Source: Oscillatoriales cyanobacterium PMM_0008 (GTDB lineage: Bacteria; Cyanobacteriota; Cyanobacteriia; Cyanobacteriales; Aerosakkonemataceae). Taken from it: a DNA stretch of 42,178 nt. Numbering within the stretch: position 1 is the first letter of the stretch; each line of letters begins with the position of its first letter. Shown here in pieces: positions 28,486 to 39,543 of the stretch. The DNA lies in NCBI GenBank assembly GCA_949128025.1, contig CASBRD010000122.1, positions 1 to 42,178 of the forward strand, given 5' to 3'. The notes below the pieces were generated by a model. That model had not been told where the DNA came from, did no database searches, and was given only the letters and a program-made list of their open reading frames with translations. The translations under genes were made by a program, and so were the position numbers.

Positions 28486-31400
28486 ATGAAACTGGACTTG
28501 CCCTTCAAATTCACACCAGCGCGTCGCACCAGGACGCCTTATTTCGTCCTGCTGTTAACCCTGCTGCTTACTGCTCTAGCCACCTACTATGTCGCTGTAA
28601 CGGCAAGAGCTAAAGACGATCTGCGATTTGAAAATGCAGTCGATCGCACGGAGAGCGACATTCAAAAACGTTTGGAAACTTACATTACTCTGCTGCGTAC
28701 AGGCAGCGGATTATTTGCTGCTTCCGAGCAAGTCAGCCGCGATCGCTTCCATGCTTATGTTAACCGCCTCGAACTACGCCGCAGCTATCCCGGCATTCAG
28801 GGAATCGGTTTCTCAGCGCGAATAATGCCGTCAGAAAAAGACGCCTTCGTCGCTGAGGAGCGGAAACAGGGCGTGAGAAATTTTGCAATACGACCGGATT
28901 ATAAGCGTGCCGAGTATCACTCAATTATTTACCTGGAACCATTAGATCGGCAGAACAAAGGTGCGATCGGTTTCGATATGTTCACCTCCTCGGTGCGCCG
29001 CGCTGCAATGGAGAGGGCACGCGATACCGACGCACCCGCCGCCTCCGGTAAAGTCAGGCTGATTCAGGAAATTGACAAAAACAAACAGGGCTTCCTGATC
29101 TATGTGCCAGTTTATCGCAACGGCACAATGCCCAAAACAGTTGCACAACGTAGAGCCGCATTGCAGGGTTTTATCTACAGTTCCTTTCGTGCTGAGGATT
29201 TAATGGCAGGAATCTTCGGCAAAGAGAAATTTCCCTACGTGGACTTTCAGATTTATGACGGAACTGAGATCGACCCCAAGAATTTATTCCACTCATCCTA
29301 CAGCAGACACACTTCCAACAGTAGATCTTACCGACCCCGCTTTAAAACCACCGAAACTATTAATATCGCCGGACGCCCTTGGAGCATTGTTTTCGCTTCC
29401 AGACCGGAACTCGATCGCGTTTCGGAAATCAGACTGGTGCCTTACATCGCAGTGGGCGGAGTGCTAATCTCCCTTGTGCTGTTCGCTCTCATGTGCAGTC
29501 AAGTACGCGCCCGCATTGCGGCAGAACGCTTGGCAGCTGAGTTGCACTCCTCGGAAGCGGCGCTGCGGGGAAGCCAAGAGCGCTTCCGACGGCTGTTTGA
29601 CTGCAATCTGGTCGGAGTTGCTTTCTGGAACGTGGAGGGGTACATCACCGAGGCTAACGACGCCTACCTTCGCCTTGCTGGCTACACTCGCGAAGAATTT
29701 GCCGCAGAGGGAAGGATCGATTGGAGACGCCTTACGCCTCCAGAGTACAAGCACTTGGACGATCGCGCGATCGAGGAGTGCATGGCGATCGGAGTTTCCA
29801 ATATTTACGAGAAGGAGTACGTCAGAAGGGACGGCAAGCGGGTGCCGATCATCCTTGGCGTTGCCCTACTCAACGACTCCCAGCACGATGGGGTAGCCTT
29901 CGGGCTGGACATCGCAGAACGAAAAAAGGCATCAGAAGCACTGCGCGAGAGTGAAGAACGCTTCCAGGCTTTCATGAACCACAGTCCAACCGCGTCGTCG
30001 ATTACAGATGAGGATGGGCGTATCGTCTACCTGAGTGAAACTTATTCCCGCATTTTCAAGATGGCGAGCGACGATGCGATCGGGAAAACAGTATTCGAGT
30101 TATATAGCCCTGAGATCGCAAGCATATTCTTGGAGAATATCAGGACAGTTGCTCGCACAAATGAAGTGGTTGAAACGGTCGAGCCTGCGCCCCGTCTAGA
30201 CGGTACGCTTGGTGATTTTCTGGTCTATAAGTTCCCGATTTTAGATGCGTCTGGGCAACGCCTGGTGGGAGGGGTGGCGATCGATATCACGGAGCGCAAG
30301 CGAGTGGAGGAGGAGCGCGAAGAACTGCTTACTCGCGAACAGGCGGCACGCGCTGAAGCGGAGGCGGCAAATCGCATGAAGGACGAGTTCCTGGCAACCC
30401 TTTCCCACGAGCTGCGAACGCCTCTGAATGCAATGGTAGGATGGACGACTTTACTGCGAACGAGAAAGTTTGACGAGACTACTACTGCTCGCGCCTTGGA
30501 GACAATCGATCGCAATACAAAGGCACTTTCCCAACTGATTGAAGATCTGTTGGATGTCTCGCGCATTATGACGGGGAAGTTCCGTATAGAGATGCGTCCG
30601 GTCAATTTGGCTTCTGTTATGGATGCTGCTATTGATGCAGTGCGATCGCCAGCAGAAGCCAAAAACATTCAAATTAATTCTGTCTTTGAAGACAAGGTAA
30701 TTTTAGTATCCGGCGACCCTACTCGCTTGCAGCAAATTGCCTGGAATCTACTTACAAATGCAATTAAGTTTACGCCCAAGGGAGGGCGGATAGAGATTCG
30801 TCTCCATCGCCATAACTCTGATGTTCAAATAACAGTTACTGACACTGGGCAAGGCATTTATGCTGAATTTTTACCTTATCTTTTTGAGCGCTTCCGTCAA
30901 GCCGATGCCAGCATTACTCGCAAGCATGGCGGACTTGGTTTGGGGCTGGCAATTGTTCGCCATCTAGTCGAGTTGCATGGAGGAAGAATTCGTGCCCAAA
31001 GTCCAGGACAGGGGCAGGGCTCGACGTTTATTGTAAGTCTACCGCTGAGGACTATTCGCGATTACGATAACATTTCCGAGACATTTTTAACCGGGGATGG
31101 ACAGGATATAACCCGTAACGACAATGACAATATACCGATCGATAATTCTGAGCTTCATGGTTTATGGGTGCTTGTTGTTGATGATGAACCTGATGCACGC
31201 GATTTGGTGACTACCGTGCTGGAAGAACGCGGGGCTAAAGTAACGGCAGTTGCATCGGCTAAAGAAGCGTTTGAGGTAATTGCCAAGGGGACTGCTGGTG
31301 GAAAACCAGATATCCTAATTAGCGATATCGGGATGCCAGAAGAAGATGGATATACTTTAATCCGCAAGGTTAGAGCGCTTGGGCCAGAACAAGGCGGAAG

Positions 31401-31545
31401 GATTCCAGCTTTAGCACTCACAGCATACGCCAGGGCCCAAGAGAGGGAAAGAGCGATCGCAGCTGGGTTTCACATCCACATAGCAAAGCCTGTGGTGCCA
31501 GAAGAACTGGTAGCAATCGTTGCCAGTCTCGTCAATCGATTTTAG
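28486..31545 (+). CDS. Hybrid histidine kinase: CHASE-PAS-PAS-HisKA-HATPase-REC
   Basis: The 1019-residue kinase starts with a membrane helix (about 18-40), a periplasmic CHASE domain (about 70-290, with YPGIQGIGFSARI and IIYLEPLDRQNKGAIGFDM), and a second helix (about 320-345). Two PAS domains follow (about 365-480 and 490-610). The phosphoacceptor is His641 in SHELRTP, then an ATPase domain with N and G boxes (NLLTNAIKFTPKGG, DTGQGI, GGLGLGL). A C-terminal receiver has acceptor Asp947 (ISDIGMPEEDG). CHASE domains sense small extracellular ligands; the ligand here is unknown. No response regulator gene is adjacent, so signal may pass through the fused receiver. The stop codon lies at the first unit of an STRR. 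Confidence 0.95.
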   Translation: MKLDLPFKFTPARRTRTPYFVLLLTLLLTALATYYVAVTARAKDDLRFENAVDRTESDIQKRLETYITLLRTGSGLFAASEQVSRDRFHAYVNRLELRRSYPGIQGIGFSARIMPSEKDAFVAEERKQGVRNFAIRPDYKRAEYHSIIYLEPLDRQNKGAIGFDMFTSSVRRAAMERARDTDAPAASGKVRLIQEIDKNKQGFLIYVPVYRNGTMPKTVAQRRAALQGFIYSSFRAEDLMAGIFGKEKFPYVDFQIYDGTEIDPKNLFHSSYSRHTSNSRSYRPRFKTTETINIAGRPWSIVFASRPELDRVSEIRLVPYIAVGGVLISLVLFALMCSQVRARIAAERLAAELHSSEAALRGSQERFRRLFDCNLVGVAFWNVEGYITEANDAYLRLAGYTREEFAAEGRIDWRRLTPPEYKHLDDRAIEECMAIGVSNIYEKEYVRRDGKRVPIILGVALLNDSQHDGVAFGLDIAERKKASEALRESEERFQAFMNHSPTASSITDEDGRIVYLSETYSRIFKMASDDAIGKTVFELYSPEIASIFLENIRTVARTNEVVETVEPAPRLDGTLGDFLVYKFPILDASGQRLVGGVAIDITERKRVEEEREELLTREQAARAEAEAANRMKDEFLATLSHELRTPLNAMVGWTTLLRTRKFDETTTARALETIDRNTKALSQLIEDLLDVSRIMTGKFRIEMRPVNLASVMDAAIDAVRSPAEAKNIQINSVFEDKVILVSGDPTRLQQIAWNLLTNAIKFTPKGGRIEIRLHRHNSDVQITVTDTGQGIYAEFLPYLFERFRQADASITRKHGGLGLGLAIVRHLVELHGGRIRAQSPGQGQGSTFIVSLPLRTIRDYDNISETFLTGDGQDITRNDNDNIPIDNSELHGLWVLVVDDEPDARDLVTTVLEERGAKVTAVASAKEAFEVIAKGTAGGKPDILISDIGMPEEDGYTLIRKVRALGPEQGGRIPALALTAYARAQERERAIAAGFHIHIAKPVVPEELVAIVASLVNRF

Positions 31546-31667: not shown

Positions 31668-34562
31668 TTACTTCTGTACCTCATAACAGCGGGAATCCCT
31701 GTAAGATTCTTGTGGGATGGGCATCCTGCCCGTCCCGAAGTACAATTTAGATGCGCGACAGCTTAAATCTCTTTTGACTTTTGAATGAGTGACTTTTGAC
31801 TTTTCCCTAGCCTCTCCTATTCCATCACAAATATGTTTATCGATTTGGCTAAGATTTTGATTGTTCTGCAAATAATTACGTGCCGAATTGCAAGCTTGAA
31901 TTAACATATCGTCGAGATTCATATTCCACAAAATCACTTTATTATCCGAACTTGCCGATGCAAGCATCTCACCATCCGGCGACCAAGATACACTCCACAC
32001 CTCACCCTGATGATTCTTCAAAATTCTTAGCAAGCTTCCGTCAATATGCCACAGTCTCACCATTTTATCTGTACTCGCCGTAGCAAGCGTCTCACCGTCC
32101 GGACTAAAGCTGATGCTAGTGACTTTACCTCTATGCCTTAAAATACTAAGCAAAGTGCCGTCAATGTGCCATAATTTCACCGTTTTGTCAGCACCCCCAG
32201 AGGCAAGCATTTGACTGTCTGGACTGAAACTTACGCTAGTAACCGAACCTTGATGTCCTTTCAAATCTCTTAGCCACACACCGTCGCGACTCCAAAGTTT
32301 AACTGTGCCATCTGCACCAGCTGAAACAAGCGTTCTGCCAGTGGGACTCCAACTCACGCAAGTCACCGAACCTCGATGTCCCTTCAATGTTCTGAGTTCT
32401 TGTCCGTTGAAACTCCAAAGTTTGACGGTGCCATCTGCACTTGCAGAGGCAAACGTCTTGCCGTCTGGGTTAAAACTTATGCTTGTTATTTTATCGGTAT
32501 GAGCCTTTAAAGAAAGGAGCAATTTACCGTTGTTGTGCCAAAGTTTGACAGTTCCATCATCACTAGCCGAGGCAAGTGTTTGACGATCCGGGCTGAAATT
32601 GATACTCCTAACTTTATTACTAGCGATAGGAAATGTTGCTTTCAGAGTCCCATCACTATGCCAAAGTTTTATAGTTCCATCATCGCTAACCGTGGCGAGA
32701 ATAAAAGTTTTTCCTTGTCTTATTCCCGCAGCGGAGGTATTACTTTGAGGACTGAAAGTTATGAAAATAATTTTACTGAGATTTTCCTGCAAATAATTAG
32801 GCTTTTTTAGAGAGTAAACTGCCAGATTTAACGCCATCAAAACTCGTATCCGCGTATCGGAGTTAATTCCAAACGGCCACCGTTGCATTCTTCTACCTGC
32901 CCGGATACTTTGTGTTAGAGCATCCCACTTGTTATTCGATTGCAAAAGTTCTTCTGAATATAAAGTGAGGGCGTTGATTTCGATGTTTCTGCGATCGGTC
33001 CATGCTTTTAGCCAAAATATCTCGCCGATTAAGGTGAAGAATAACCCCAAAACTACAACTGCTCTGATATTAATGGCGACTCTCATTTGTCGCTCGTGCT
33101 TTAGTTTGGCTTCTGTTAATTTTCGTCGCTGTTGCTCGTTACTCAGTTGTGCGAGTAAATCTTTTTCTCTACTAAGTCGATCGATTTCGGTGCGACTTTG
33201 TTGTTCTTTGTTGCGTAATTCTCCTAAAGCTGCTTCTTGGCTGGCTGCTAGGAATTGATAATCGCGATCGCTCAAACTTTTGCCTGTTGACCAGTTGAGT
33301 GCTTCCTCCAATGCTTGTCCCCGCAACAATCGCGATTCATCTTGACAATTGGAGGCTATCCATGCTGTTAATGGTGCGGCATGGGGACGCAAATCAAAAA
33401 AAGCTTTTTCTACCCAAGTTTCGTTAAAAATTGCCTCGTAAATGCGGTTGGAAACTTTTAATTTGCCAGCACGCATAACCACTAAACCGGATAGTCTTAA
33501 TTGGGTTTGTTCGGGGGTGTCATCGGCTGGAATTTCTCCTAGTTGCAAGATTTTATGATATAATCCCAGCAATCTCCCGGCGCGTTGCTGATTTGACAGG
33601 ATGCGATCGCGAATTGTCTTGATATGCGCTGGTTCATCCTGGGATTCCCAATTGTCGATAATGTGGGATTTTACCAGATCGGTAATTGGTGATTGGTGAT
33701 TGGTGATTGGTGATTGGGCGTTTCCAGTTTGGAGGGGCGAAGCATTTGGTAAGAAAACCTGGGAGGATACCGAAAGATGATCGCCCAAATGCTTCGCCCC
33801 TACTACTAATTTACAAAGTTTTTGAGTTAAAAACGGCTGTCCGCCTGTCCATTCCAATATTTCTTTTAAAATTTCTTGGGGTTTATCTACCTTTCCCTCT
33901 AATCCTTTTGCTAATGCTTGAGCTTCCTGCAATTCAAAACCATGCAGTTCAATTGCACGACCGATATTAAACGGCGTGCGAGTTGGATCGGAAATTAAAT
34001 CGCTTGGCGTGGCGACTCCCAACAAAGCAAATGTAAGTCGCTGATATTCTGGTTTTTGGGCGCGTTTATTATGGCAAGATCTAATCAGGGCGAAAAAGTC
34101 GTCAAGCGAATCTTTGAAGCTAAGAACGCTATCAATTTCATCGATAAAAATAACTATTTTTTGAGAAACTTGTGCCAGCAGCACTTCTTCAATCAATTCA
34201 CCTAAGCGCTGGACTGGTGGTATTAATTCGCGATCGCGCCACCAAGTCATAAACTCGATCGCCTTAAACAGATTGAAACAAGTCAATAGTTTATAGGCAA
34301 TGCCTCCATACCATTTATCCAAAGAAACTTGTTGGTTGCCAATATCTGAAATGTCGATAGTGGCACAGGCAATTCCTTCGGCTTTTAGCCTTTGCATCGT
34401 TCGCACCAGCAAACTGGATTTCCCCATCTGACGAGAATTGAGTACATAACAAAATTCGCCAGTTTCCAGTCCTTCATAAAGTTCATTGTCAGCCTGTCGC
34501 ACCACATAAGTAGGTGCATTATCTGGTAAACTTCCGCCTATTTGATAGTGATAATTTGTCAT
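31668..34562 (-). CDS. AAA-like ATPase with membrane segment and WD40 repeats
   Basis: The 964-residue protein starts with an AAA-like (STAND-type) domain: Walker A variant [11 protein letters not shown], Walker [13 protein letters not shown], and sensor regions [13 protein letters not shown] and [15 protein letters not shown] repeat-encoded insert (about residues 254-293), a helical and coiled region with one membrane segment (about 493-515), and about seven WD40 repeats follow (FSPDGE..ASAS-D..VKLWH). Many cyanobacteria encode such proteins; they are thought to be sensors that switch on ATP binding. The C-terminal tail after [12 protein letters not shown] is encoded by repeat-type DNA. It starts 24 bp after the C39 gene on the same strand, so it may end an operon. 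Confidence 0.9.
33685..33801. repeat. STRR and inverted repeat inside the AAA-WD40 gene
   Basis: Four copies of ATTGGTG (33685-33712) are followed by an element with 17-bp perfect inverted arms AGGGGCGAAGCATTTGG (33733-33749) and reverse complement (33785-33801). Together they are in frame and encode about 40 residues, including the repetitive [13 protein letters not shown], between the ATPase core and the next region. Confidence 0.88.
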
Positions 34563-34586
34563 TGTGATGTAAGTATTTTATCTAAT

Positions 34587-35633
34587 TTATCTACTTTTTA
34601 GAGTAGGTACTCCTTCTAAAAACGACCCGCTAAGAAGCAAAACTGTTTGAGAATCTAATTTACCAGTAACTTTCAAACCCAGATTTTTTTGAAAGCGTCG
34701 GATAGCTGGAACTAACTCGGCCTCGGTTGGAATTATTTGGCCCGATCGCTGAAGATAAGACACCGCTTGAGAAACCGTTATCGAGATATCTTGACTGCGA
34801 AAAATGGGGAGATATTGTCCGCCCCAATTTTTTTCAAATTGCTGGCGATCGATCGTGTAAATTTTTCCTCTAGTTGGCTCACCAATTATAGCATTATTGC
34901 CATTTAAACCTAACAAGGCTACCGCATGAGGAATAACGCGAACGCCATCTCTAAACCAAACTCCCAACACACCAGGACGATTGATTAGTCGCATTTGCTC
35001 CCAAGTTGCTTCTAATTCAATCCCATCCATATCAAGAGAGCGAGTTGCTATCAGTAATTGCGCCATAGAAGTGCCTAAGCGACTGGTTCCGGCCAAACGA
35101 GCAACCTTTGATTCTGCTGCATCTATTCCCCAAACGCGCAGCACAGTAGCTAATGCGGATGGCCCACAACTGCTATTAGAAGTTTGTTTGAATACACCGT
35201 TGGGTTGCAAGTTATCTTCTAAAGAAGCGTAAATAGGAGATAAAAAGTAAGCTTCAGCAGCAGTAAAACTTCCCAATCCTAGTGAGCAAATCAAAAGTAC
35301 AGATACTACCTGAATGCGGGAAGTATGCCGGCTGATGGTGAAAGCTATGCCGCAGATGAATAGCAGCAAAAGGCGCATAATTGTCCAAGTGACTTGCAAG
35401 CTATAGAAACGCCATTCTACTGGTAGAGCTTGTATTTCTGGAATTAAACGAGCTAGTAATACCAAGCCCAAGTAAACAACTAAAAATGCGATTAATAAGT
35501 GTGTTTTACCTTTAAAAATATCGTTTGCAGTTGCTCCTTTTCGCAACATTACTCGTCCGATGCGTTGTCCTATAACGAACATCCAAGAACCCAAAATTAG
35601 CGTTACCAGCGTCTGTAGTAGCATATTGTGCAA
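34587..35633 (-). CDS. Membrane-anchored C39-like cysteine peptidase with peptidoglycan-binding domain
   Basis: The 348-residue protein has four hydrophobic segments in the first 125 residues, then a papain-like C39 domain with the cysteine in NSSCGPSALATVLR (Cys156), the histidine in IPHAVALLG (His236) and, in the position of the usual Asp-Pro, GEPTRGK. A PG_binding_1-type domain ends it (AIRRFQKNLGLKVTGKLDSQT, about 315-335). C39 peptidases usually cut double-glycine leaders of exported peptides and are joined to an ABC exporter; here there is no exporter and the domain should face the periplasm. Neighbours are a PH-like membrane protein 18 bp upstream and the AAA-WD40 gene 24 bp downstream. 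Confidence 0.85.
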   Translation of the reverse strand: MHNMLLQTLVTLILGSWMFVIGQRIGRVMLRKGATANDIFKGKTHLLIAFLVVYLGLVLLARLIPEIQALPVEWRFYSLQVTWTIMRLLLLFICGIAFTISRHTSRIQVVSVLLICSLGLGSFTAAEAYFLSPIYASLEDNLQPNGVFKQTSNSSCGPSALATVLRVWGIDAAESKVARLAGTSRLGTSMAQLLIATRSLDMDGIELEATWEQMRLINRPGVLGVWFRDGVRVIPHAVALLGLNGNNAIIGEPTRGKIYTIDRQQFEKNWGGQYLPIFRSQDISITVSQAVSYLQRSGQIIPTEAELVPAIRRFQKNLGLKVTGKLDSQTVLLLSGSFLEGVPTLKSR

Positions 35634-35651
35634 GATGTGAGTTTAGATTCC

Positions 35652-36149
35652 CTAGCCCCATTTTTCCGGCGGCATACCCAGAAAGCTGCGAATCAGATTA
35701 AGAGTTTCTAATTTTTGTGCGATCGACTTAAGTCCCAAGTTGAGCTTTAAGCTTTCACCGGATTTCAAAAAGAGCGTAATCTGATAATCAACCGCTTCCT
35801 GATGATGCCAGCTTGGTGACTGAAGCTGCACATCTAAAACATCGGTAAGGGAATGCCAAATCACCTTAGTATTAAGCAAACCGCGTCGCTTAATAGTGAA
35901 GCTGTTGTATTCCTTATCAAAATGACAGATAACCACCCGTCCGGCTAAAATTAGCACTAAACCACTCGCCACAAGACTTAATAAAAGAAGAGGTGGTATC
36001 CACAAGACGTAAGTTAACCACCTAAGTTGGTGGTAAATTAGCAAGATGAGCAAAAAAGTGCTTACCATCCACCCACCTGTACCTAGCCACAGTGAATAGG
36101 GTCGATATCGAAATTTCAGTTGCGTTTTTGTGTTTTCTAAGATAACCAT
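35652..36149 (-). CDS. Two-helix membrane protein with PH-like C-terminal domain
   Basis: The 165-residue protein has two membrane helices (about 23-42 and 48-70) and a beta-rich C-terminal part (VVICHFDKEYNSFTIKRRG, then VIWHSLTDVLDVQLQ and ITLFLKSGESLKLNLG) that resembles the bacterial PH/YdbT-like fold. Function unknown. It starts 56 bp after the rhodanese gene. Its stop TAG lies in a CCCTAGCCCC repeat. Confidence 0.65.
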   Translation of the reverse strand: MVILENTKTQLKFRYRPYSLWLGTGGWMVSTFLLILLIYHQLRWLTYVLWIPPLLLLSLVASGLVLILAGRVVICHFDKEYNSFTIKRRGLLNTKVIWHSLTDVLDVQLQSPSWHHQEAVDYQITLFLKSGESLKLNLGLKSIAQKLETLNLIRSFLGMPPEKWG

Positions 36150-36205
36150 TGTTTTATTTCACCACCAAAAACAGTATATCAACTTTTTGCGATCGCACTA
36201 TCTAA

Positions 36206-36751
36206 CTAATTACCCGTGATAATCTTTGTCCCAGGTGCGGTAATTTGTGCTAAAATCTCTGCATCTTTTGACGCAGGCACAGCCAGTCGCCATGATTTGA
36301 TACCTCCTTCTAGGACAACAAAATTTAACCTTGTTTTTCTCAATTCTTTGTAGGCTTTAACCGCACGCATCCCCCTTGTACAATAAAGTACGATAATTGG
36401 CTGAGTATGATTATTTTGGATATACCTTTGGGCAATAACCCGAATCTGCTGCACGCCGAATCCAGCCTGAATATCTGTTAGGGGTACAAGCAGGCTGTTA
36501 CCGATGCGATCTTCTGCGTATTCTTCTGGCGATCGCACGTCAATCAAAATTGCATTTCTCAACTTCCCCTGCTTCAATTCGGAAGCGGTCACTTTTTTGG
36601 CACTCAAACTGGCGATAAAGGTTGGAACATCCATGTGATTAACCACTGCTGCTAATGTAACAGAACTAACACCGACAATGCTGAGAGAAAGAATTACTGG
36701 TAAAGGACGTAAATAACGAATGATGCCTTTTTTCAAGTTTTTACTGTGCAT
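36206..36751 (-). CDS. Exported or membrane-anchored rhodanese-domain protein
   Basis: The 181-residue protein has an N-terminal hydrophobic leader (about 17-37) and one rhodanese domain: ILIDVRSPEEYAEDRIGNSL, then IIVLYCTRGMRAVKAYKEL with active-site Cys124 in the loop CTRGMR, and VVLEGGIKSW. Rhodaneses carry sulfur as a cysteine persulfide or sense redox state. The leader places it on the outer side of the membrane. Part of the minus-strand cluster 37570-34587. Confidence 0.88.
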   Translation of the reverse strand: MHSKNLKKGIIRYLRPLPVILSLSIVGVSSVTLAAVVNHMDVPTFIASLSAKKVTASELKQGKLRNAILIDVRSPEEYAEDRIGNSLLVPLTDIQAGFGVQQIRVIAQRYIQNNHTQPIIVLYCTRGMRAVKAYKELRKTRLNFVVLEGGIKSWRLAVPASKDAEILAQITAPGTKIITGN

Positions 36752-36781
36752 TTTTGAGTCTTCCTTTTGAGTGTGGTAAGT

Positions 36782-37570
36782 CTAAAACCAGCGGTAAGAC
36801 TTCATCAGGTAATATGCGATCGCAACAATCGGAAATGAGCATACGTGCATTGACATAACAGTGCTTGCAAGGGTGGGACGTTTTTCTCGAAGAAGGCTTG
36901 CGATCGCAAAACCTTTCATAACAAAACCAAAGATAAACCCAATTAGCAATATTCCTCCTGTCACTGCATAAAGAAAAGTGCGATCGGCTAAGCCACTTAT
37001 CGATTCCACCAGGAATAAGCTGGCAAAACCTAATCCCATGAAGAATAGATAAACCAAGAAAATAAACTTTCCTTGGCTAATATTTTTTAAGTACCCCGTG
37101 CGCTGACAAAAAGAAAGGCACATTGCCGCAGATATCGCAGATCCAATCAGGGAAATTGGAAAAAATATACTGAAAGATACTAAGCCGAGCGGGCAAATTA
37201 TTATGTAAAATATGTTTGCTAAAGTAGCGAATTTACAAGCTTTTAGGTAAGGAAGATGTTCTTGTTTGTGCAGAATATAAGCTTCGATGATAACGATTGC
37301 AAGGAGAGGTATTCCATAGGGGAAAATTGTTGCGATCGCGGGAAGAAATAAAAGCTGAGAAGCAAATTCAATATTGCTGGTATTGGCAAATCCACCACCA
37401 CAAGCTGTTGCTGGGAAACCAATAATTAGCAGTAATCCGACAGCGCCTAATATAACTTTGATTAAGGATTGCCACTTTTTCTGATACTTATTTTTGTTTA
37501 AACTGCGAGTTGCTAGTGGAAAATTAGTGATGGGAACGATGGCTGAATCAAATTGTTTGTAACGCTGCAT
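36782..37570 (-). CDS. Polytopic membrane protein of unknown function
   Basis: The 262-residue protein has about six or seven hydrophobic segments (the first about 38-57, IKVILGAVGLLLIIGFPATA, followed by CGGGFANTSN). I do not recognise the family. It is the first gene of the minus-strand cluster; AGGAG lies about eight bases before its ATG. The next gene begins 30 bp downstream. It is divergent from the HTH-TIR-AAA gene. Confidence 0.65.
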   Translation of the reverse strand: MQRYKQFDSAIVPITNFPLATRSLNKNKYQKKWQSLIKVILGAVGLLLIIGFPATACGGGFANTSNIEFASQLLFLPAIATIFPYGIPLLAIVIIEAYILHKQEHLPYLKACKFATLANIFYIIICPLGLVSFSIFFPISLIGSAISAAMCLSFCQRTGYLKNISQGKFIFLVYLFFMGLGFASLFLVESISGLADRTFLYAVTGGILLIGFIFGFVMKGFAIASLLREKRPTLASTVMSMHVCSFPIVAIAYYLMKSYRWF

Positions 37571-37666
37571 GGTTATGCTCCTGAAAGATAAGTGGTAATT
37601 GCATCTTCCTGTTTATTATTAAGACAGATGCTTCACTGAGTTCTTGACTGACTTCTTCGAGATCTC

Positions 37667-37686
37667 ATCGACTTTTTATCGACTTT
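37667..37686. promoter_or_regulatory. Direct repeat ATCGACTTT x2, 11-bp period, possible operator
   Basis: ATCGACTTT occurs at 37667-37675 and 37678-37686, one helical turn apart, in the divergent gap between the membrane-protein gene and the HTH-TIR-AAA gene, about 50-70 bp before the ATG at 37738. It could bind a dimeric regulator such as the neighbouring HTH protein. This is a suggestion only. Confidence 0.3.
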
Positions 37687-37737
37687 GTGGAAAACTGGCA
37701 TTTAAGATGTGAAAAGTATCTTTGCTATGCAGAAGCA

Positions 37738-39543
37738 ATGTCCCGATCGCTAAAAGTTCGTTCTGAGTGCATCCCCACAGTCAAGTCGTCTCTCCTCAGA
37801 AACGGCTTTCCCAGTCAAAAAGTCCTCGCTGAAGATCTAGGGATAGCCCAATCTACTGTGAGCAACTTTCTCAATGGCAGACCCGTTGATTATGTGAATT
37901 TTAGGGAAATTTGTCAGATATTGAGTCAAGAGTGGCGAAATATAGCCGATTTATCGGATCATTTGCCAGAAAATGAAATAAATAACCTTAAAGCTAAAGT
38001 TTTCATCAGCAGTCGCCATCAAGACTTCCGCCTTGTCCAGCAGTTGCAGCAAGCTTTGAGTGCGGCGGGACACGAAGTTGCGATCGCATCTGAAAACACT
38101 CCGCCCGAACAATATTTACAAAGCTGCGATTACTTGCTGCTGCTGTTGTCCCAGGAATCCGCCGTCAGCGAAATCGTCTTGGAAGAAGTGCGGGTCGCCA
38201 AAGAATTGCACAACTTTACCGCCCAAAAGCCAGCAATTTTACCGCTATGCGTAGGTTTACAAAGTAAAACGCCTCTTTCCTTCGATTTACTGCAACTTTT
38301 GCATGGAATTCAGCCGTGGCAGTGGCGTAGCGACGACGACACCTCAACCATAATCTCAGAAATCCTCAGCGTAGTGGCCCAAGGACGCACGTCCCTAAGT
38401 GCCTCCAGCAAATTAGCTGTAAACTGGGCTACTGAAGGGACTGGGAATTGGGGAGTGGGAATTGGGAATTGGGAATTGGGCATTCTTCCCCACTCTCCCA
38501 CTCTCCCCCTCCCAGTCGCGTCACCAGAGTTACCGGAGGGGCAAGTAGAGGTGGCATCGAGCTTTTATATCGATCGTCCTCCCATTGAAACGCGCTGTTA
38601 TGAGACAATATGTCAGCCTGGTGCCCTCATCCGCATCAAAGCGCCCAGGCAGATGGGCAAAACCTCGTTAATGGCGAGGATTTTGCATCACGCAGAGGAA
38701 CAAGGCTCAAGAGCGATCGCGTTGAGTTTTCAGTTAGCTAATAAACGAATTCTTACCAACTCGGATACATTTTTACAGTGGTTTTGTGCTAGCGTCGGAC
38801 AAGAATTGGGGATGCTGGAAAACCTGGGCAAGTGTTGGGAATTAGCCGATATTATTGGCAGCAACCAGTGCTGCAAAGCTTACTTTGAACAGTGTTTGTT
38901 GCCGGAAATATCGACTTCCCTAACATTGGGTTTGGATGAAGTCGATCGCGTGTTTGAATCTCCCGAAATTGCCGATGACTTTTTTGGTTTGTTGCGAGCT
39001 TTGCATGAAGAATCCAAGCGACGCGATATTTGGAAAAAATTTCGCTTGGTAATTGTTCATTCCACAGAAGTTTATATTCCGTTGGATATCAATAAATCAC
39101 CTTTTAATGTGGGATTGCCGATTGAATTACCGGAGTTTAACTCGCCGCAGGTGCAAGAGTTGGCAATGCGGCACAAACTAGATTGGAATGAGAAACAAGT
39201 CGAGCAATTAATGGGTTTAGTGGGAGGACATCCCTACTTAGTGCGGTTGGCTATGTATTGCATTGCGCGTCAGGATGTTACTTTAGATCGGGTGGTGGAA
39301 GAGAGTGCCACAGAAGCGGGAATTTATAGCGATCATCTGCGGCGGCATTTGTGGAATCTAGAAAAATATCCAGATTTGTTAGAAGCGATGAAAGAGGTTG
39401 TGAGTGCTTCGGGGGGAGTGCGATTGCGGTCAGAATTAGCGTTTAAATTAAATAGTATGGGGCTGGTGAAGTTAGATGGCAATGATTGTACTCCCAGGTG
39501 TAGTTTGTACGAGCAATATTTTCGCGATCGCGTTTGTAGATAG
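37738..39543 (+). CDS. HTH-TIR-AAA-like (STAND) protein
   Basis: The 601-residue protein begins with a phage-repressor-like HTH (LRNGFPSQKVLAEDLGIAQ, then STVSNFLNGRPVDYVNF), followed by a TIR-like domain (about 87-185: KVFISSRHQDFRLVQQLQQ, YLLLLLSQESAVSEIVLEE with a candidate catalytic Glu near 149), a linker and an AAA-like ATPase (Walker A APRQMGKTSLM, Walker B LTLGLDEVD, then KSPFNVGLPIELPEF). It lacks WD40 repeats. TIR-STAND proteins often act in immunity or signalling; the HTH suggests DNA or partner binding. The ATG at 37738 is chosen over a GTG at 37687 because the family starts at MSRSLKVR. The linker is encoded by tandem repeat DNA. Confidence 0.88.
   Translation: MSRSLKVRSECIPTVKSSLLRNGFPSQKVLAEDLGIAQSTVSNFLNGRPVDYVNFREICQILSQEWRNIADLSDHLPENEINNLKAKVFISSRHQDFRLVQQLQQALSAAGHEVAIASENTPPEQYLQSCDYLLLLLSQESAVSEIVLEEVRVAKELHNFTAQKPAILPLCVGLQSKTPLSFDLLQLLHGIQPWQWRSDDDTSTIISEILSVVAQGRTSLSASSKLAVNWATEGTGNWGVGIGNWELGILPHSPTLPLPVASPELPEGQVEVASSFYIDRPPIETRCYETICQPGALIRIKAPRQMGKTSLMARILHHAEEQGSRAIALSFQLANKRILTNSDTFLQWFCASVGQELGMLENLGKCWELADIIGSNQCCKAYFEQCLLPEISTSLTLGLDEVDRVFESPEIADDFFGLLRALHEESKRRDIWKKFRLVIVHSTEVYIPLDINKSPFNVGLPIELPEFNSPQVQELAMRHKLDWNEKQVEQLMGLVGGHPYLVRLAMYCIARQDVTLDRVVEESATEAGIYSDHLRRHLWNLEKYPDLLEAMKEVVSASGGVRLRSELAFKLNSMGLVKLDGNDCTPRCSLYEQYFRDRVCR
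38441..38515. repeat. STRR inside the HTH-TIR-AAA gene
   Basis: Copies of GGGAATT/ATTGGGA heptamers (38441-38480) are followed by a CT-rich block with CACTCTCC units (about 38485-38515). They encode the linker NWGVGIGNWELGILPHSPTL between the TIR and AAA domains. The same word types occur between genes elsewhere in the window (for example 42121-42178). Confidence 0.88.

Follow-up and report, generated by a model that had tools for sequence, protein, structure and literature searches.

The locus

The window – the whole stretch of 42,178 nucleotides analysed here, from Oscillatoriales cyanobacterium PMM_0008 (contig CASBRD010000122.1; genome G000 in what follows) – carries a five-gene minus-strand operon for envelope proteins and a WD40 ATPase and, divergent from it, a gene for a helix-turn-helix (HTH)-TIR-AAA_35 protein (Table 1). 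Our subject is this last protein, a candidate regulator, together with the array of short repeats in the promoter region between gene and operon. A sequence-only reading had taken the six open reading frames (ORFs) for an envelope-sensing or defence module; an ORF check agrees with the coordinates it gave and with gaps of 30, 56, 18 and 24 bp within the operon. Its domain calls are confirmed by Pfam (AAA_35 in both ATPases, TIR_2, WD40, Peptidase_C39 with PG_binding_1, and Rhodanese), while its PH-like call, for which Pfam offers no match above cut-off, is borne out by a predicted model that shows a PH-type barrel. The ORF of the HTH-TIR-AAA_35 protein opens at a GTG (37687); orthologues begin at the ATG at 37738, and taking this as the start gives a divergent gap of about 167 bp. 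A scan for promoters and terminators was uninformative, sites being no more numerous than in shuffled sequence.

Table 1. Features of the locus, in window coordinates (TM, transmembrane)
Feature	Position	Strand	Basis or remark
Polytopic membrane protein (TM gene)	36782-37570	-	ORF; about six hydrophobic segments
Exported or anchored rhodanese	36206-36751	-	ORF; Pfam Rhodanese; C-x2-G-x-R loop
2-TM protein with PH-like domain	35652-36149	-	ORF; EROS-like predicted fold
4-TM protein, C39-type peptidase and PG_binding_1	34587-35633	-	ORF; Pfam
AAA_35-hydrophobic segment-WD40 protein (long-type), last operon gene	31668-34562	-	ORF; Pfam
HTH-TIR-AAA_35 protein (short-type STAND)	37738-39543	+	ORF 37687-39543; start from orthologues
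Cro/C1-type HTH domain	37738-37962	+	strongly conserved in orthologues
TIR domain	37999-38382	+	Pfam TIR_2; degenerate across orthologue group, deleted in several
AAA_35 (STAND-like) domain	38530-39525	+	Walker A RIKAPRQMGKTSL, Walker B LTLGLDE
Proposed operator array	37634-37685	-	AAGTCGAT twice at 11-bp spacing, followed by degenerate ATCTCGAAG, AAGTCAGTC, AACTCAGTG
91-bp promoter element, single window copy (junction)	37605-37695	.	present twice in sister genome G001

A module kept in relatives

An HTH-alignment scan of genome contigs recovered 44 loci, all cyanobacterial by record title; 28 count as close, with an HTH identity of at least 72%. Family members share a plan – a divergent HTH-TIR-AAA_35 gene opposite an operon that ends in an AAA_35-WD40 gene – and vary in the genes between, which in relatives also include NfeD, SPFH/Band_7 and type IV pilin-like Pilin_GH genes (Pfam on examples). 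Module counts refer to 32 loci, with G041 and locus L093 of the same-genus genome G002 (where the contig starts at the gene) excluded. Among the 23 that have at least 5.5 kb upstream, NfeD is found in 21, SPFH in 20, the WD40 partner in 19 and Pilin_GH in 13, followed by the TM gene (8), PH (7), C39 (5) and rhodanese (3); NfeD and SPFH are both present in 20. The exceptions are the window, which has neither NfeD nor SPFH, L107 (pilin only), L101 (NfeD only), L096 (no WD40 partner) and L077, whose genome has the WD40 partner beside C39 on another contig.

The operon genes differ in how closely they keep to the locus. Across the 60 relatives searched the TM gene is full-length in nine, always at this locus (in G002 with the HTH gene on another contig), and is thus nearly restricted to the family; close PH copies (at least 62% identity) number seven, all within the locus. 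Of 11 full-length C39 copies, six lie in the locus (that of G002 split), one beside a WD40 ATPase only and four elsewhere. A conserved neighbourhood for PH and C39, which the sequence-only reading had proposed looking for, is clear for the PH gene and looser for C39. The same reading had held that envelope genes conserved without the ATPases in most relatives would make the latter chance neighbours; the relatives do not show that pattern, ATPases and envelope genes forming one conserved unit. Outside that reading lay the 11-bp repeat array with its proposed regulon, and the NfeD-SPFH core with its apparent deletion here. Chance adjacency of an envelope operon and unrelated AAA_35 genes, from a family that is large in cyanobacteria, could be read from the multiplicity of AAA_35 (13 matches in the window's own genome) and from C39 homologues that in 4 of 11 genomes are not near the ATPases, but is highly improbable given synteny in 19 of 23 loci, a single WD40-AAA_35 group and a common promoter array, and is largely refuted by gene order kept across families.

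Several neighbours of the module deserve mention in their own right. A CHASE-PAS histidine kinase gene (window 28486-31545) adjoins the WD40 ATPase gene here and likewise in G001, G005 and G006. At L119 (3063-4121) the WD40-AAA_35 gene is followed by a gene for a TrkA/ion-channel protein (one copy scanned), with ORFs of the same length at that place in five more loci. In Microcoleus-type genomes (L084 11097-13285, L119 12306-14345) a second operon of pilin, fatty acid hydroxylase and rhodanese genes follows the HTH gene, and in G002 an IS605-type OrfB transposase gene (L074 3-686) occupies the divergent gap, the HTH gene lying on a separate contig.

A repeat array that tracks the HTH gene

The divergent promoter contains tandem AAGTCGATGAA-type repeats at 11-bp spacing, together with degenerate copies; in most loci the distance between these and the start codon of the HTH gene is about 50 bp. 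With at most one mismatch, the repeat pair occurs in 13 of the 60 relatives, exactly those whose best HTH match reaches at least 115 bits (at least 67% identity); the other 47 are without it, the next best genome having an HTH match of 92 bits. The reversed pattern, used as a control, gave five matches in four genomes, none among the 13. Across 386 genomes of the phylum the pair is present in 10: all six with an orthologue (G169 and G370 being new) and four of the 380 others, with one single-mismatch match each. Here the reversed pattern gave six matches in six genomes.

The sites also differ from random positions in where they lie. The 30 pair matches in the 60 relatives form 25 clusters, every one of which lies 17-304 bp before a same-strand ORF, as against 324 of 2117 random positions (15%). 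Downstream are NfeD (12), the TM gene (2, in the window and G006), pilin-containing genes (6) and others (5). As expected, the module accounts for fourteen of the clusters; sites ahead of pilin-containing genes lie on a contig other than that of the HTH gene in G006, G001, G004 and G011, and beside the HTH gene in G010 and G041. In these last two genomes an operator site precedes the pilin/fatty acid hydroxylase/rhodanese operon. Candidate target promoters carry phased direct repeats.

The same periodicity extends to the wider HTH family. In an analysis that did not depend on the motif, upstream regions of 69 family genes show self-similarity that peaks at a lag of 11 (mean 21.9 of 40, compared with 17.1 for 550 control genes), with a lag of 22 ranking next (18.4); the lag-11 score is at least 22 for 41 of the 69 and for 62 of the 550 controls. 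Some paralogous HTH groups bear repeat variants of their own, for instance AAGTCAG or AAGTCAAG. At L121-L135 the same HTH family is fused to WD40 and other parts, and several of these genes have their own upstream 11-bp repeat variants.

These patterns bear on whether the array might be bound by some unrelated regulator, the HTH-AAA_35 gene being merely a target along with the envelope operon. The array is known from sequence alone, four phylum genomes lacking an orthologue have a match, and in G017 – where the cassette is not in the stretch seen – sites also stand ahead of other genes, namely one for a membrane protein and one for a VIT/VWA-domain kinase (L179, L180). We nonetheless regard this alternative as unlikely: among the 60 relatives, genomes with the array and genomes with an HTH orthologue are the same, 11-bp variants of their own directly precede several paralogous HTH genes, and in G229 the extra phylum match sits immediately upstream of an HTH-family gene.

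Two linked ATPases

The AAA_35 domain of the HTH-TIR-AAA_35 protein is matched by Pfam at an E-value of 4.8e-144. Its whole-protein model (predicted local distance difference test score, pLDDT, 69.8) has the plant TIR-NLR RPP1 as best Foldseek match and also matches the archaeal STAND-like ATPases 2qen and 2fna; a second fold comparison recovered CED-4 (Z 11.2, 268 aligned, root mean square deviation [rmsd] 6.7). By predicted fold, then, the plus-strand ATPase is of the STAND type, with an NTPase core of the MalT/AfsR kind, and the sequence-only reading was right to place it in one class with the WD40 ATPase, AAA_35 being common to both. The HTH domain is conserved in 12 aligned orthologues, and its helices are present in the predicted model. 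Mean identity to the window is 0.78 for the HTH (33 orthologue rows) and 0.80 for AAA_35 (32), and drops to 0.565 for the TIR (27).

The WD40-AAA_35 protein has a single hydrophobic segment (residues 495-513) between ATPase and propeller, a feature also of seven of eight further long-type proteins checked. The module's 23 WD40-AAA_35 rows form one group (support 100/99) among 34 rows, apart from own-genome paralogues; next nearest are rows from an Allocoleopsis plasmid, where an HTH-TIR-AAA_35 gene is the neighbour, and then an own-genome paralogue, itself paired with a TIR-AAA_35 gene. In a count that used 68 of 70 rows, a long-type gene lies within 6 kb of 18 of 31 short-type AAA_35 genes (10 genomes), where 0.38 would be expected; as judged from gene positions, linkage of the two ATPase types goes beyond chance.

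Two of the plasmid-borne relatives have further domains or annotations. On Allocoleopsis plasmid pMIC7113.03 (L211 5626-7659) an AAA_35 partner forms a fusion with HisKA and HATPase_c domains; its neighbours are a pair of AAA_35-WD40 genes and one HTH-TIR-AAA_35 gene, which has a copy of the repeat. An AAA_35-WD40 protein of a Nostoc plasmid (L212 9775-14103) is annotated as N-acetylmuramoyl-L-alanine amidase, which again ties the pair to the cell wall.

Decay of the TIR domain and the case for defence

Sequence matches of the TIR domain are weak – none for the TIR alone against PDB sequences, and only marginal ones for a TIR profile – so a fold search was used instead. This returned SPARTA (8i87; Z 12.7, 127 aligned, rmsd 2.8), RPS4 (Z 12.5) and AbTir (Z 11.8). 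At the position that we take, from the canonical TIR motif, to be that of the catalytic Glu, and whose placement is supported by an alignment of paralogues, the 28 TIR rows (window included) have Glu in 9, Gln in 16, Asp in 2 and Thr in 1. The module TIRs aligned do not have a segment that is present in two paralogues and resembles, there, the BB-loop with the helix after it. Moreover, 6 of 32 loci have no TIR at all yet retain both the HTH and the repeat pair (at L101, which is among the six, the ATPase frame is interrupted), so the conserved function cannot require the TIR. An intact active site is thus not a property of the orthologue group: aligned sequences point to decay, and in most of the lineage the domain is probably a vestige or has a structural role.

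This finding bears directly on the defence function that the sequence-only reading had entertained. A TIR-STAND immune module would have the WD40-STAND protein sense phage or envelope damage and the TIR-STAND protein make an NAD-derived signal or deplete NAD, with the envelope genes as effectors or guarded targets. The confirmed TIR fold, RPP1 as best whole-protein match, a putative catalytic Glu in the window TIR, and related TIR-AAA_35 and AAA_35-WD40 pairs on plasmids would all fit. We consider such a module quite unlikely, however, given how few TIR rows keep the putative catalytic Glu, the lost segment and the TIR-less loci, and the results of searches aimed at defence. With PADLOC-DB 2.0.0 no component model was matched over most of its length: HEAT-ARM_XIII covers the WD40 region (3.5e-35) over 158 of 1,972 model positions, SAVED_TIR covers the TIR (2e-5), and other matches are above 0.009. 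Of 30 pattern matches in viral contigs none was confirmed as a relative, and elsewhere in the window the genes scanned serve housekeeping, transport or signalling. The locus looks more like envelope regulation than phage defence, for which we find no support.

A defence island was also considered and rejected: when PADLOC was run on the six genes and on nine further proteins of the window, no system emerged, and the single match among the nine covers the BRCT end of a DNA ligase.

Envelope genes and a reduced copy

Across 11 aligned homologues of the C39 peptidase the catalytic Cys, His and Gln do not vary, while the acidic partner is Glu in the window, L073, L074 and L081 and Asp in the remaining seven. 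The C39 domain is presumably periplasmic by the positive-inside rule. The model of the PH-like protein (pLDDT 74) comprises two TM helices and the PH-type barrel and matches EROS/CYBC1 (E 5.9e-6, template-modelling score 0.61). The rhodanese active-site Cys is retained in all eight aligned sequences. By sequence comparison the window's rhodanese gene (36206-36751) is a chimera of two tandem copies found in the sister genome G001: its first 240 bp resemble copy 1 (229/240) and its last 300 bp are identical to copy 2.

A second rearrangement may explain why the window has no adjacent NfeD and Band_7 genes. G001 has a 91-bp stretch ahead of NfeD and another ahead of the TM gene; 69 of the 91 positions are identical between the two, and in G002 72 of 91. 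The first 45 bp of the window's single element match the NfeD-side copy at 42 positions and the TM-side copy at 33; the last 46 bp match the TM-side copy throughout (46/46) and the NfeD-side copy at 36. Because the two halves match different G001 copies, and the roughly 2.2 kb between those copies are missing, NfeD and SPFH were apparently lost by deletion between the two repeat copies. A search elsewhere in G000 did not find the module's SPFH gene, the best match being a 64% paralogue.

Collapse of the assembly was considered as a cause and is unlikely, the repeats being 76% identical.

Between two same-genus genomes the NfeD-SPFH segment (L073 5025-6165, L074 1014-2154) is 95-100% identical per 100 bp, and the TM-rhodanese stretch that follows it mostly 75-96%; this suggests recent transfer or recombination of the segment.

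A probable STAND transcription factor for the envelope

We think it probable that the HTH-TIR-AAA_35 protein is a STAND transcription factor of NLR-like architecture that autoregulates an envelope regulon, with the WD40-STAND protein as probable partner. Its binding sites, probably occupied by an oligomer, would be the 11-bp direct repeats that lie in phase with the helix in the divergent promoter of its own gene and, in relatives, at a small number of further promoters. From there it would control itself and an envelope regulon, to which NfeD and SPFH, the pilin-like proteins, the TM protein, the rhodanese, the PH/EROS-like protein and the C39 peptidase would belong. The membrane-anchored AAA_35-WD40 protein would report the state of envelope or membrane to the regulator. 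For the regulator, comparative evidence – co-conservation, co-occurrence of site and gene, position of the sites, TIR decay and predicted STAND fold – is strong; that the WD40 protein acts upstream is likely from the pairing. DNA binding by the HTH, the sign of regulation, signalling between the ATPases and the stimulus are what we infer from these patterns.

Several observations weigh against this interpretation. The HTH that would bind the array matches Pfam HTH_3 only below threshold (18.1 bits, cut-off 23), as it does HTH_26. The array is not universal – 27 of 32 orthologue loci have the pair and 29 at least one copy – and HTH-AAA_35 relatives at 55-62% HTH identity (G023, for example) fail the pattern. 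At up to two mismatches G008, which has no orthologue, gives three matches compared with one for the reversed control there, while in the window's own genome the window site is the only one, so that a wider regulon is not seen. The lag-11 excess is modest in paralogues (18 of 37 at 22 or more, none at 28 or more), and genomes share ancestry, so that genome counts are not independent. A long-type ATPase lies near only 18 of 31 short-type genes, the window's own TIR keeps the putative catalytic Glu, and the proposed regulator has no C-terminal sensor repeats such as those of AfsR, the Pfam AAA_35 match reaching residue 613 of 618.

A bolder extension, which we put forward tentatively and as a possibility only, is that the membrane WD40-STAND sensor and the HTH-TIR-STAND factor form a two-STAND relay – a sensor-helper pair following NLR logic, in which gene control has replaced the enzymatic role of the TIR – and that the HTH family with its self-encoded 11-bp operators is a general cyanobacterial class of autoregulated switches, with a repeat code for each paralogue.

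If the proposed transcription factor is real, a protein of NLR architecture has been used, or re-used, for gene control, and decay of its TIR can be watched in living relatives. In filamentous cyanobacteria it would also give the poorly understood SPFH/NfeD membrane proteins, and the pilin-like proteins, a control system of their own, and it offers a predicted operator, regulon and partner for direct testing.

Comparison with known systems

STAND regulators, SPFH-NfeD operons and TIR-STAND proteins are each known already. Their combination in one module is not described in titles or abstract openings among the matches listed from the open-licence literature, nor in the available portions of PMC7159879, PMC10907252 and PMC7517822; among the matches listed for PF14516/AAA_35, none has PF14516 and all are unrelated by title.

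The VMAP/iSTAND ternary conflict systems of multicellular prokaryotes resemble the module in combining STAND and TIR modules in filamentous hosts, going by the available text of PMC7159879, but no vWA or MoxR domain was found among the module genes scanned with Pfam. Plant and bacterial TIR-NLR or TIR-STAND proteins likewise have a TIR followed by a STAND ATPase, RPP1 being the best Foldseek match; the protein described here differs in its N-terminal HTH, in a TIR degenerate or lost within the group, and in having no LRR or other sensor C-terminus.

Two further likenesses concern the operon. An NfeD gene adjoining an SPFH gene is described for SPFH1/SPFH2 (PMC2636767, available portion), and the same neighbours, as in stomatin/slipin operons, are seen in the relatives, but here SPFH is in most loci shortened to about 180-230 aa, and an AAA_35 gene stands at either end of a set that also includes pilin-like, PH and C39 genes; the window locus has neither NfeD nor SPFH. 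EROS, reported in the accessible part of PMC5379978 as an orthologue of the photosystem I assembly factor Ycf4, shares with the predicted PH-like protein two TM helices and a PH-like domain; identity is 17%, and a Pfam Ycf4 match is absent.

A known parallel is offered by the STAND transcription regulators AfsR, MalT and GutR, in which a STAND NTPase is joined to a DNA-binding domain. AfsR is a STAND-family SARP regulator, and SARP promoters have direct repeats 11 or 22 bp apart, that is, at one or two helical turns (PMC10936776, in the part available). It is this plan – a STAND ATPase, a DNA-binding domain and phased repeats at the targets – that, with the comparative evidence, leads us to regard the HTH-(TIR)-AAA_35 protein as a probable STAND transcription factor. 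It differs from these regulators in that a Cro/C1-type HTH stands at the N-terminus and is followed by a TIR-like domain, and in that sensor repeats are not on the same protein: the target operon instead encodes a second, membrane-anchored WD40 AAA_35 protein.

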